From: Candidatus Methylomirabilota bacterium
GTDB taxonomy: Bacteria; Methylomirabilota; Methylomirabilia; Methylomirabilales; CSP1-5
Length of the DNA: 33,859 bases
Assembly: GCA_027293415.1 (NCBI GenBank)
Contig: JAPUFX010000085.1
Coordinates: forward strand, 1-33,859
Reading direction: 5' to 3'
The first letter of the stretch is position 1. Each line of letters begins with the position of its first letter. Of the stretch, positions 8,095-21,096 are shown one piece after another. Both the position numbers and the translations under genes were made by a program. A model generated the notes under the pieces. The model had not been told where the DNA came from and searched no databases. It was given only the letters and a program-made list of their open reading frames with translations.

Positions 8095-8293
8095 GCTAGC
8101 CCGCATTATTCACGAACGGAGTGTCTTCGTGAATAATGCGCCTGCAGGTGCGGGCTCGACCGCACCGGCAGGTTTCGATCCCGCCGCTGCGGCGGGCCTC
8201 AAGGCTAGCCCTGAGCGACGCCCCGCACACGCGGGGCGGAGTCGAAGCCCGGAGGGCAGATTATTCACTTCTCTGTGAATAATCCGGGCTAGC
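8095..8293 (+). repeat. Dispersed 199-bp multi-hairpin element, copy A
   Basis: The ends are terminal inverted repeats: GCTAGCCCGCATTATTCAC at the left and, read in reverse complement, GCTAGCCCGGATTATTCAC at the right (18 of 19 match). Each end also folds on itself (ATTATTCAC with GTGAATAAT), and the interior has three more GC-rich hairpins, including CCCGCCG/CGGCGGG and GCCCCGC/GCGGGGC. It abuts the mutS2 stop codon. A second copy at 19745-19946 in inverse orientation is about 90% identical by eye. It has no coding capacity, so it resembles a MITE or REP-like element. No clear target duplication is seen. Confidence 0.85.
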
Positions 8294-10651
8294 TCACCGC
8301 TCCTTCAATGCCACAACCGTGGCACCGCTCCCTCCTTCACCGATCTCGGCGAGATGAAACCCCTCGACCAGAGTGTGGCTGGCCAGAAACTTGTGGACCC
8401 CCTTTCGGAGCACACCTGTTCCCTTGCCATGGATCACCCTGACCCGCCGAAGACCTAATAAGAAGGCGGCATCTAGATACTTCTCCAAGCGGCGTGATGA
8501 CTCTTCGACAGTGCAACCAATTAGGTTGATCTCAGGGCCAATGGACTGGGTCCCCTCCACGAAGAGCGGCACCTCGGCGCGCGGCCCCTCTCGGGACCGG
8601 GCCGGGCAGAGCGCCGTGACAGGTAGGCGGACCCTGCCCACGGTGAGTTGCACCTCCACGGTCCCTTGCGGAGAGACCGATGTCAGAACCTGCCCTTCCC
8701 GGTGGAGCCCCGCAACCCTGACCCATCGGCCTGGACCAATCTCGGCCCCTGCCTCAAGCCCATTGACCGGAGGTGTGTCGTTCGCCTCCACCCTTGCCTT
8801 CAGCTCCTCGAGCCCTTGATGAAAACCCCGAATCTCCTCCCGCCGACCACCCTGATCCCGGAGTGCCCGAATCAGGCCCTCTCCCTGCTGGCGGAGTTCA
8901 GCAAGGAGCTGCCTCGATTCTTTCCGCGCCTGATGTGTAAGTTCCTTGATCCCCTCGCGCAACCGCACCACGAGTTTCTCCGCTTCTTTCTTCAGGGTTG
9001 TGGCCTGCTCGACCTCGTGATGCAGCCGGGTCTTGAGCCGGTCGACCTCCCGGCGGTCGACTTCGAGGGTCTCAAGGAAAGCCTGGGTATTTTGGTGCCC
9101 ATCGGTGAGGACACCTCTGGCCCTTTCCAAAACTGCCCCGGGCAGACCGAGACGGCCAGCGATCTCCAACCCGTAGCTCTTGCCGGGGAGACCCAGCCGG
9201 ACATGGTATGCAGGAGCCAGGCGTTCTAGATCGAATTCGACGCTGGCATTTTCCACGCCGGGAGTGAGGGCAGCAAAGGCCTTGACCGCCTCCAAATGAG
9301 TACTGGCGATCACCGAGGCGCCTCGCTCCCGGAGCGCGTCCAGGATGGCAATACCGAGGGCGGCACCTTCCGAGGGATCGGTCCCGGCCCCGAGCTCATC
9401 CAGAAGGATCAAGGTTTCAGGTCCTGCATGGGCCAAGATCTTGATGACCTGGCTCATGTGGGAGGAGAAGGTACTCAGGCTCTGTTCAATACTCTGCTCA
9501 TCCCCAATATCGGCAAACACGGATCGGTAGCAGGGAATCTGGCTGTCCGGAGAAGCTGGGATGGGGAGACCGGACAATGTCATTAGGGTGAGAAGACCAG
9601 CGGTCTTCAGGGCGACGGTCTTTCCACCCGTGTTCGGTCCGGTGACCACCAGCACAGAAAACACCCCACCAACTTCGAGGTCAATGGGGACTGGCATCCC
9701 TTGCGGGCCGAGACTCAGCACGAGGAAGGGATGGCGAGCCTGACGCAGGATGAGGCGGCGGTCCCGGGTGACCCGCGGAACCTGAGCCCTGAGACGGACG
9801 GCTAGACGACCTTTGGCGGCCAGTAGGTCCAGATTACCCAGAAGCCCCAAGAGTGCCTGGATGATTTCCGCTTCTCGCCCAACTAGTGCTGTAAGGGCCC
9901 GGAGGACTTTGATCGCCTCCTCTTCCTCTTCCCGCAGCAGGCTCCGCAACCGGTTGTTCATCTCCACCACTGGGGTGGGCTCTAGGAAAAGGGTGAGGCC
10001 GCTCCCTGACTGATCCTGGACAATTCCCTTGATCCGCCCCTTGGCAGACGACTTCACCGGAATTACGTATCGGTCATTGCGAAGTGTGATGATCGGTTCG
10101 GCAAGGGTCGCCTGGTAGACGGGAGACGTCAGATACCACTCCAGCTTTACGAGAATGGCCGCCCGAAGGGTGCGCATATCCTGCCGAACCCGTTCAACCC
10201 CTGGGCTGGCCGTATCGGCCACCTCTGCCTCTGGCGTAATAGCCCCACCAATTGCCGCGCAGAGGGCTTCGGGGGGGACAAGGCCACGGGCCTGCTTCCA
10301 GAGGAGGGGCGCCCCCTCCTTCTCCCGATGGAAAAAGGTCCGGAGTCGGCGGGCCGCCTCCAGGGTTTCATAAATCTGCCAGAGGGACCGAGGATCGAGT
10401 GTGGCCCCCTCGATCCTCGCCCGGTTAAGATGGAGGCGAATATCAGTCACCCCACCGAAGGGTGGCTCCTCACCCCGTTCAAAGAGTGCCTTTGCCTCCG
10501 CGGCCTCGGCCAGGGCTTCCTGTACCCGTTCCAAGTCGTGCACAGGACTGAGATGCTGTGCCCGCTCTTTGCCCAAGGGGGTGTTCGCCGCCTCCTGGAG
10601 AAGACTCAGGACGCCGGTAAACTCTAATCCTGTCTGTGACCGGTCATCCAT
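8294..10651 (-). CDS. mutS2: Endonuclease MutS2
   Basis: A 785-residue protein with MutS2 layout: an N-terminal MutS core (LEFTGVLSLLQEAANTPLG), a Walker A motif VTGPNTGGKTVALKT, Walker B ILLDELGAGTDPSEG, a coiled coil (about 510-610), and a C-terminal Smr domain with INLIGCTVEES and HGKGTGVLRKGV. MutS2 proteins suppress homologous recombination and, in Gram-positives, act on collided ribosomes; they lack the mismatch-recognition domain of MutS. The first Smr motif reads NLIG rather than DLRG, a variation I expect in some lineages. ATG 10651 has AAGGG directly adjacent with almost no spacing, so initiation may be weak. A strong terminator hairpin ends only about 18 nt upstream. Confidence 0.95.
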   Translation of the reverse strand: MDDRSQTGLEFTGVLSLLQEAANTPLGKERAQHLSPVHDLERVQEALAEAAEAKALFERGEEPPFGGVTDIRLHLNRARIEGATLDPRSLWQIYETLEAARRLRTFFHREKEGAPLLWKQARGLVPPEALCAAIGGAITPEAEVADTASPGVERVRQDMRTLRAAILVKLEWYLTSPVYQATLAEPIITLRNDRYVIPVKSSAKGRIKGIVQDQSGSGLTLFLEPTPVVEMNNRLRSLLREEEEEAIKVLRALTALVGREAEIIQALLGLLGNLDLLAAKGRLAVRLRAQVPRVTRDRRLILRQARHPFLVLSLGPQGMPVPIDLEVGGVFSVLVVTGPNTGGKTVALKTAGLLTLMTLSGLPIPASPDSQIPCYRSVFADIGDEQSIEQSLSTFSSHMSQVIKILAHAGPETLILLDELGAGTDPSEGAALGIAILDALRERGASVIASTHLEAVKAFAALTPGVENASVEFDLERLAPAYHVRLGLPGKSYGLEIAGRLGLPGAVLERARGVLTDGHQNTQAFLETLEVDRREVDRLKTRLHHEVEQATTLKKEAEKLVVRLREGIKELTHQARKESRQLLAELRQQGEGLIRALRDQGGRREEIRGFHQGLEELKARVEANDTPPVNGLEAGAEIGPGRWVRVAGLHREGQVLTSVSPQGTVEVQLTVGRVRLPVTALCPARSREGPRAEVPLFVEGTQSIGPEINLIGCTVEESSRRLEKYLDAAFLLGLRRVRVIHGKGTGVLRKGVHKFLASHTLVEGFHLAEIGEGGSGATVVALKER

Positions 10652-18761: not shown

Positions 18762-19730
18762 CTACACTCCGTTCATCCCAAGGGTGTCCTGCTCAGGCGA
18801 AGATCCCCTGCACGGTACGAATCCTGGTCCCGTGGAACACGCCATGATCATCCGCTTCCGACCGCCCAAATCTGGCACGACCTCCACATCGGGGAAGCCC
18901 CCCCGATCCCGCAGAAGCCTTATGAGAAAAATTTCCTGCTCTGGAGCCATTTCCAGGGCCAACCATCCTCCGGGGCGGAGGAGGGTTGATGCCCCTGTGA
19001 TGATCTGTCGGTGACACCACAGGCCATCCGGCCCCCCATCTAAGGCCTCGACAGGCTCATAGTGCGCCTCGGGCGGCAAGACCGCAAGATCGGTGGTGGC
19101 AACATAGGGCGGGTTACTGACAATCAGGTCGCACTGGCCGATGAGGCCCCGGGCAAAGACCGGCTCCAGAAGATCCCCCTGGAGGAAGGCAATCTGCCCT
19201 GCGACCTCATGCACGCCAGCATTTTCTCTGGCAACGTCCAGCGCTTCCCGTGAGATCTCGGTCGCATAGATCCGGGCGGAGGGCAACATTTTCGCCATTG
19301 CCACGGCGATGGCTCCCGATCCGGTCCCAACGTCCACAATCACGGGGGCCGTCAACTGCTTGAGCCGCGCGAGCGCTGTCTCGACCAGGACCTCGGTTTC
19401 AGGCCGCGGGACCAAGACAGCAGGAGTCACCTTGAAGGACAGGGACCAAAATTCCTTCGTCCCGGTGAGATAGGCAACTGGTACTCGAGCCTGTCGCCGC
19501 GAGACCAGAGTCCTGTACGTCTCAAAAACCGCAGGTGGCAGCCGTTCTTCAATGGCGGCATACAAGTGGAGGCGGTTAGAGCGGAGGAGGGAAGCCAACA
19601 GACATTCGGCATCCAGCCGAGGGGTGTCAACCCCCGCAGATTTCAGCAGAGCAGTCGCCCACACCAGGGTCTGTCCAATCGACGAACCCTCCGGTATGAG
19701 TACTACTCTCTCCGTGACCAACGATTCCAC
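18762..19730 (-). CDS. prmC: Release factor glutamine methyltransferase
   Basis: A 322-residue SAM-dependent methyltransferase that modifies the glutamine of the GGQ motif in release factors. The N-terminal helical domain ([21 protein letters not shown]) is followed by the Rossmann domain with [16 protein letters not shown] and the catalytic NPPYV ([11 protein letters not shown]). It is about 30 residues longer than typical because of a non-conserved C-terminal tail after [12 protein letters not shown] 19730 has AGGAGG 10 nt upstream. That site touches the edge of the dispersed hairpin element lying between prmC and its substrate gene prfA. Confidence 0.94.
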
Positions 19731-19744
19731 CGCACTTCTTCCTC

Positions 19745-19946
19745 CTAGCCCAGATTATTCACGTAGAAGTGAAGTGAATAATCTGCCCTCCGGGCTTCGA
19801 CTCCGCCCAGCGTTTCCGGGGCGTCGCTCAGGGCTAGCCTTGAGTCCCGCCGAAGCGGCGGGATCGAAACCTGCCGGTGCGGCCGAGCCCGCACCTGCAG
19901 GCGCATTATTCACGAAGACACTCCAGTCGTGAATAATGCGGGCTCG
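19745..19946 (-). repeat. Dispersed ~200-bp multi-hairpin element, copy B
   Basis: This is the inverted counterpart of the element at 8095-8293. In reverse complement it reads AGCCCGCATTATTCACGA at its start and ends CAGATTATTCAC, an 11-nt loop and GTGAATAATCTGGGCTAG. Many differences from copy A fall in hairpin loops (for example GCCGCTTCGGC against GCCGCTGCGGC), leaving stems intact; one GC-rich internal stem is weakened. The right-hand loop is longer by a few bases. It lies 3 bp after the prfA stop codon and before prmC, interrupting an otherwise tight operon. Confidence 0.85.
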
Positions 19947-19949
19947 GTG

Positions 19950-21032
19950 TCATGTCGCTGAGGAGGCTCTGAGTCGCTCCGCCTCGTGATGTGTGACCAG
20001 GGCTTGGATGAGCTCTGCCAGGTCTCCCTCGAGTACGGCCGAGAGATTATACAGGGTTAACCCGATGCGGTGGTCGGTCACCCGACCCTGGGGAAAGTTG
20101 TACGTCCGAATCCGCTCGCTCCGATCTCCCGTCCCCACCTGTTGCCGCCTGGCGTCGGCGATCTCGCGCTCTTGCTCGGCCCGGGCCTGCTCCAGAAGAC
20201 GCGCTCGGAGGACCTTGAGAGCCTTGGCCTTGTTCTTGTGCTGGGACCGTTCGTCCTGGCAGGAGACGACCAAACCTGTCGGGAGATGGGTCATCCGAAC
20301 CGCCGAATCGGTGACATTAACATGCTGTCCCCCGTGCCCGCTGGCCCGGAAGACGTCGATCTGGAGATCCTTCGGGTCGATCTGGACCTCCACCTCTTCC
20401 GCTTCGGGGAGGACCGCCACCGTCACCGTTGAGGTGTGAATCCGGCCGCCCGCCTCGGTCACCGGAACCCGCTGCACCCGGTGCACACCACTCTCCTGCC
20501 GGAGCTTCCGGAAGGCTCCCTTTCCCTCAATCGCTAGGATAACCTCCTTCATCCCTCCGATCCCGGTGGGATGGGCCGAGAGCATCTCCACCCTCCAGCC
20601 CTGGGACTCGGCATGCCGGGTATACATCCGGAGAAGATCAGCGGCAAATAATGCTGCCTCTCCCCCACCAGCCCCAGCCCGGATCTCCATGATTACTCCC
20701 TTCTCGCCGGCCAGATCCTTCGGGAGGAGCATCTCCTTGAGTTCCTGCTCTAAAACCTCTTGCCGCTTCCCGAGCGCCTCGAGTTCTCCCGCGGCGAGCG
20801 CCCGCATCTCCGAGTCGGCCGTCTCCTCAAGGAGCACTGCCGCCCCCTCCTGCTCTTGGAGCAGTTGTCGGTAGCCCCGGTATTTTTCCACAATCGGATG
20901 GAGATCTGCGTGGGCCTTGGCGTGGCGTTGAAAGGTGCTAGGATCCTTCAGAACCGAGGGATCGGCCATCTTCTGGCTCAAGTCCTCGTACCGCGTTTCG
21001 ATCTCCCCCAGCTTGTCCAGCCACGTTAGCAT
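19950..21032 (-). CDS. prfA: Peptide chain release factor 1
   Basis: A 360-residue release factor decoding UAA/UAG. It has the PCRF domain with [15 protein letters not shown], the codon-recognition tripeptide PVT at about 190-192 (RF1 family PxT; RF2 has SPF), and the catalytic GGQ at 234-236 ([10 protein letters not shown]). The C-terminal RF1-type [14 protein letters not shown] is normal. ATG 21032 ([12 protein letters not shown]) is chosen; an in-frame GTG at 21053 would add seven residues and neither has a strong ribosome site. GGQ is the target of PrmC, encoded next. Confidence 0.95.
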
Positions 21033-21096
21033 AAGAGCACGTTCATACCTCACCGATCAGCACAGGGGCATTCATTCCCTCTCAGTGATCCGTGAG

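Follow-up and report, generated by a model that had tools for sequence, protein, structure and literature searches.

Bacterial MITEs such as the QMITEs of Coxiella, MITEAba12 of Acinetobacter, and the enterobacterial ERIC elements are short and non-coding, carry inverted ends, and are found in tens of intergenic copies that form stable folds (PMC10969869). A review of bacterial MITEs does not mention the IS1380 family (PMC10969869), and the literature searched contained no MITE linked to IS1380. Targets of other lengths may occur among described IS1380 members, as with the 5 bp of IS1247 (PMC3281130). IS1380 forms the outgroup in piggyBac phylogenies, and piggyBac itself uses the 4-bp target TTAA (PMC10813416). 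The REP and REPIN elements associated with RAYTs are also hairpin-rich, extragenic, and often located near stop codons. Insertion of the IS200/IS605 type, as well as that of REPs, proceeds without target duplication.

The repeats described here lie in a stretch of 33,859 nucleotides (referred to as the window), which corresponds to contig C85 of an NC10-lineage metagenome-assembled genome (MAG) with a size of 2.75 Mb. Two related elements in opposite orientation are present in the window. Their multiple copies, inverted ends, tetranucleotide target, and empty sites, together with full-length insertion sequences carrying matching ends, support that both are MITE copies, as was proposed in the initial annotation. 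In all likelihood, the element is a non-autonomous MITE of approximately 189 bp plus a 4-bp target that is moved in trans by an IS1380-type transposase. Judged by Rfam and the literature searched the family is new, while the kind of element is already known. In contrast to the bacterial MITEs mentioned above, it is GC-rich and modular instead of AT-rich, and its target is a palindromic tetranucleotide that contains a stop codon.

The two copies in the window are non-coding and share 93% identity (previously estimated by eye at about 90%). The initial annotation had delimited them at 8095-8293 and 19745-19946; the elements are real, but their proper limits are narrower (Table 1). Terminal inverted repeats do exist, yet instead of the proposed 19 bp they comprise 14 bp with one mismatch (CCCGCATTATTCAC and CCCGGATTATTCAC), and the outer GCTAG, which had been counted as part of the repeat, belongs to the flank, where CTAG is the 4-bp target. 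Neither are the ends identical up to and including CTAG, as the flank on the prfA side of copy 2 reads CGAG. The neighboring genes were correctly named: domain matches identify both mutS2 and prfA, and the flanking tetramers are 1 bp (mutS2, copy 1) and 3 bp (prfA, copy 2) away from the respective stop codons. The mutS2 protein of the window is 98% identical to its counterpart in a Candidatus Methylomirabilis MAG. Copy 2, with prfA and prmC as its neighbors, could affect the translation of prmC, whose start lies about 14 bp away according to the gene caller.

Table 1. Features of the two MITE copies, their flanks and neighboring genes, and RAYT-like genes of the same genome
Feature	Position	Strand	Remark
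MITE copy 1, 189 bp without target	8100..8288	+	ends fixed by family alignment and empty sites
MITE copy 2, 194 bp without target	19749..19942	-	
Target tetramer CTAG left of copy 1	8096..8099		
Target tetramer CTAG right of copy 1	8289..8292		mutS2 side; empty mutS2-dnaG site has a single CTAG
5' terminal inverted repeat, copy 1	8100..8113	+	CCCGCATTATTCAC
3' terminal inverted repeat, copy 1	8275..8288	-	CCCGGATTATTCAC, minus-strand reading
End hairpin 1, copy 1	8103..8139	+	loop inverted in seven other copies
Hairpin 2, copy 1	8141..8172	+	belongs to module missing in 151-bp form
Hairpin 3, copy 1	8180..8196	+	
Small hairpin, copy 1	8198..8215	+	CTCAAGGCTAGCCCTGAG
Hairpin 5, copy 1	8219..8238	+	
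3' end hairpin, copy 1	8259..8284	+	
Copy 2 flank CTAG	19745..19748		unlike the pre-insertion target CGAG
Copy 2 flank CTCG	19943..19946		minus strand CGAG; equals the empty site in G004 and G005
mutS2, neighbor of copy 1	8294..10651	-	MutS_V/Smr domains
prfA, upstream neighbor of copy 2	19950..21053	-	PCRF/RF-1 domains
prmC, downstream neighbor of copy 2	18762..19730	-	
RAYT-like Y1 genes L376-L383	G000 C124, C17, C70, C68, C186, C42, C43, C189		

When the window's own genome was searched by BLAST with copy 1, 67 pieces were obtained, corresponding to at least 40 copies with identities of up to 97%. The consensus CCCG[C/G]ATTATTCAC is found at both ends of the element, and the 14-base end pattern matches the genome 99 times (51 forward and 48 reverse), compared with 0 matches for the reversed-pattern control. 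Both ends could be read in 45 copies, partial ones being present besides, and the family size is roughly 50 copies instead of the two to which it might have been confined. Most of the two-ended copies measure either 189-194 bp or 149-152 bp, with single copies of 176, 248, and 293 bp. In the short form, a 38-bp module that contains hairpin 2 is missing, whereas the 248- and 293-bp copies have in common about 97 bp of extra sequence inserted into a hairpin-rich part. The same terminal repeats are present in relatives at the genus, order, and class level: of 95 genomes from the phylum, 40 contain the end pattern together with the target (with a maximum of 88 occurrences per genome), and the control gave 0 in every one. 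One copy (L114 in G013), whose host belongs to a different family within the order, is 89% identical to copy 1, which suggests horizontal transfer. The Rfam search of the window returned 0 matches above the gathering threshold. The two findings that would have spoken against the initial annotation, a family of just two copies without homologues and a match to a catalogued element, were thus not obtained, and no reports were found in literature searches on NC10 insertion sequences and on IS1380 with CTAG.

Of the 45 two-ended copies, 26 have CTAG as the adjoining tetramer at either end. Matched pairs other than CTAG also occur (CTTG/CTTG and GTAG/GTAG in this genome, CTAA/CTAA in a relative), some other copies have mismatched pairs, and the eight CTGG/CTGG copies are all located inside one other repeat and are not independent. 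Empty sites and target duplications, the search for which had been recommended, were found: both flanks of a copy were joined through one tetranucleotide and queried against relatives, and 18 comparisons each revealed an empty orthologous site with a single tetranucleotide at 87-99% flank identity. Seventeen of these are sites of the own genome that are empty in the close relative G004, including the prfA site of copy 2, and one is a G004 site that is empty here. The mutS2-dnaG site (dnaG being named from the following reading frame), also among the 18, is empty in G004, where it is identical over 94 bp, and is also empty in the MAG L031. At least 6 other sites are filled in both the own genome and G004. 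Because orthologous sites that are filled here are empty in a close relative and there hold one tetranucleotide, the family is mobile and has been so recently.

Two other repeats were observed next to MITE copies. One of them hosts MITE copies in the arrangement CAGTGCCC CTGG [MITE] CTGG CGGAACCCTGGGGTGCTTAGGAGG...GGGGCA (at L002, L139, L140, L145, L146, L198, L201, and L202), where the MITE length differs within similar hosts. The outer end of this second repeat adjoins CTAG, which suggests that it might be another CTAG-targeting element. The other repeat, TGAGAAATAGTTGGTGGGGCA followed by CTAG, is found in the right flanks of L011 and L203, and G004 contains many matches to sequence near L011. 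Its reverse complement contains CTATTTCTCA, which is common to the end of the IS1380 element L216 from the same genus, and the repeat may be the end of another IS1380-dependent MITE.

Elements encoding PF13701 transposases are present in many NC10 genomes. CTAG-type tetramers flank seven full-length IS1380 elements of the phylum, six of which have closely matching ends, namely CCYGSATTATTCRYGAAC or a sequence close to it (L204, L206, L209, L210, L212, and L214). Four of the six are flanked by CTAG/CTAG, while L206 and L209 are flanked by one-off tetranucleotides. L204, L210, and L214 resemble the MITE in both the terminal repeat CCYGSATTATTCRYGAAC and the CTAG-type flanks, but IS1380 elements are 1.5-1.75 kb long and carry one transposase gene, whereas the MITE has about 189 bp, no gene, and a hairpin-rich interior. 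The L169/L204 transposase matches the NCBI IS1380 model NF033539 with E = 3e-108, and the match of the IS1380 elements to PF13701 has E = 2e-126. Approximately 13 of 14 core positions are identical between the MITE ends and the best IS1380 ends. The agreement is close but imperfect, with CAC in the MITE at a place where most IS1380 elements have CGT or CAT. The IS1380 element of the same genus mentioned above (L216 in G002) has CTAG on both sides and ends that are different from those of the MITE.

Since IS1380 elements of the phylum share CTAG-type flanks and closely matching ends with the MITE, an IS1380-type transposase is the likely mover. An IS1380-family (DDE, PF13701) transposase would recognize the CCCG[C/G]ATTATTCAC ends in trans, move the MITE, and join it at a CTAG-like tetranucleotide, after which the tetramer would stand on both sides. 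This transposase would be one of those found in the phylum or a lost or unassembled relative. A transposase or RAYT gene with matching ends had been named as the partner to look for; IS1380 provides it in the phylum, but neither a RAYT nor an intact insertion sequence of the own genome does. No intact IS1380 with matching ends was found in the genus, nor in the own genome; since this MAG has a completeness of about 97% and is broken up at repeats, the missing match is not proof. The only IS1380 seen in the own genome is a 141-residue fragment (G000 C93) without these ends nearby. The partner may thus have been lost, lie in an assembly gap, or act from elsewhere, which is the weakest link of this explanation.

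The landing sites were compared with other CTAG tetramers, for which genes were called on rebuilt empty sites with a simple codon-usage model; a position at a stop codon was compared with an undisrupted relative for those copies alone that had an empty site. None of the 31 insertions is located inside a predicted gene, whereas 60 of the 101 other CTAGs present in this DNA are (p = 2e-10). The occupied CTAG supplies the TAG stop of a gene in 13 of the 31 cases, compared with 8 of 41 non-genic control CTAGs (p = 0.07), and under stricter gene calls the enrichment of gene-ending CTAGs gave p = 0.012 and 0.016. The family prefers CTAG as its target, avoids genes, and is often found on stop codons. 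CTAG reads the same on either strand and so includes the amber stop TAG in both directions. An insertion regenerates CTAG on both sides, and a gene ending in that CTAG stays intact, because the tetramer is palindromic and is afterward present on either side of the element. Insertions within genes would in turn be removed by selection against genic hits. The regeneration of CTAG/TAG and this selection would together explain why copies lie between genes and often on stops.

The folding of the element offers another explanation, in which it is kept as a functional RNA or DNA structure (a stabilizer of mRNA 3' ends, or an attenuator or terminator located behind stop codons) and has spread as a secondary effect. 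The folds are indeed strong (-123.8 kcal/mol, z -9.0, and -110.9 kcal/mol, z -6.3, against dinucleotide shuffles, 0 of 200 of which were as good), many copies lie just past stop codons, and copy 2 separates prfA from prmC. It had been noted earlier that differences fall in loops and that stems look maintained. The first part is borne out across 40 copies, where diversity is 0.047 in paired and 0.175 in unpaired columns (p = 2e-7), so that variability is 3-4 times lower in stems than in loops. Some of the variation seen in loops consists of an inversion of the hairpin-1 loop (AACGGAGTGTCTT), which was observed in L008, L010, L011, L017, L024, L029, and L152 on several backgrounds, as expected if the arms are extruded or recombine. 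As to the stems, compensatory change is limited. Cells in which both sides have changed number 11 compared with 1.8 in shuffles, mostly in hairpin 2 of a hand-written structure, but RNAalifold yields a covariation term of about 0, and more single changes disrupt a pair than preserve it (62 vs 30), a ratio that we estimate to be about that of transition bias alone. The terminator reading was rejected, as neither copy has a T run: 0 Rho-independent terminator sites (GC-rich hairpin plus T run) were detected in either copy, and the promoter-like matches in the terminator scan are the palindromic arms of hairpin 1, seen on both strands. The reading as a functional RNA was likewise rejected, given the missing Rfam match, the covariation term near 0, and the limited double changes. 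As the sites are moreover vacant in a close relative and whole hairpins are gained or lost, we consider retention for a function of the structure improbable. The hairpin-rich interior is most simply understood as passive, modular palindromic DNA that needs no RNA function.

Still less probable is a REP- or REPIN-type element whose mover is a RAYT (Y1 tyrosine transposase) that works on the end hairpins in single-stranded form, although the element has end hairpins and many internal ones and its own genome encodes eight Y1/RAYT-like genes. None of the eight RAYT loci contains the terminal repeat or an internal module in the flanks read, and a 4-bp target borders the insertions at either end; a RAYT/REP origin was rejected on these two grounds, and with it the earlier suggestion of a large REP-type element. 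The element is also longer than REPs and REPINs and differs from them by its target duplication and its lack of linkage to a RAYT. Some of the RAYT-like genes are flanked by direct or inverted repeats of their own, for example L377 (655-780 and 1978-2103, 94% identical). We give hardly any credence to the idea that the repeats are assembly artefacts or chimeras, since dozens of divergent copies are found on other contigs as well as in relatives whose genomes were assembled separately, and some of these copies occupy shared orthologous sites. The doubt is limited to the joint at copy 1. The left flank of this copy (up to 8095) runs on in G004 into sequence that is found on contig C45 of this assembly (L144), and the other half of the mutS2 insertion site, the dnaG side, is located at the edge of C15 (C15:1-194, L004) next to another copy. 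Because the two halves continue on C45 and C15 when compared with G004 and L031, the joint (8095-8100 and 8288-8294) merges halves of two insertion sites, by either misassembly or recombination between copies.

A refinement of the IS1380 reading, and not an exclusive rival to it, concerns the joining step. The palindromic CTAG resembles the TTAA target of piggyBac, a transposon of eukaryotic hosts, and the insertion could likewise be free of DNA synthesis, such that a CTAG overhang from the donor pairs with the target gap and can replace a target other than CTAG. We regard this as a tentative possibility. At the prfA site of copy 2, the empty tetramer is CGAG in G004 and G005 and CGAA in G001, and at the filled site one flank reads CGAG and the other CTAG. 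If the gaps were filled in the ordinary way, both flanks would be CGAG, while a donor-derived CTAG overhang on the element would give one CGAG and one CTAG, in line with these unequal flanks. Ten of the 18 empty tetramers differ from CTAG (nine by one base and one by two), while the filled flanks are nearly all CTAG, and the empty targets deviate from CTAG at 11 of 72 positions, compared with a flank divergence of 4.6% (p = 4e-4). On the other hand, polarization by an outgroup is available at the prfA site only, where a single substitution could explain the difference. CTAG is lost at targets more often than at CTAGs overall (p = 0.016), but non-coding CTAGs of the same loci are likewise lost quickly (of 21, 14 are conserved; p = 0.2 vs insertion sites). 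In view of this comparison and of the single polarized site, a donor-carried CTAG is kept as a lead and was dropped as a general rule. Copy 2 hints at a CTAG that moves together with the element, in the manner of piggyBac, and synthesis-free joining is likewise no more than hinted at, the wider evidence being weak. A wider and somewhat more doubtful speculation is that bacterial IS1380-type elements insert like piggyBac without DNA synthesis, in which case the carried CTAG could overwrite the target and amber stops would serve as a built-in safe harbor.

The present data pair insertions with their empty sites in a transposon family of NC10, an uncultured methane-oxidizer lineage, and link a MITE to IS1380, a transposase family for which the literature searched contains none. 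The unequal flanks of the prfA copy make piggyBac-like joining testable for IS1380. Such repeats break, and probably mis-join, contigs in comparable assemblies, including the window analyzed here. Finally, the coincidence of CTAG and TAG suggests a simple route by which a mobile element can land harmlessly at stop codons.
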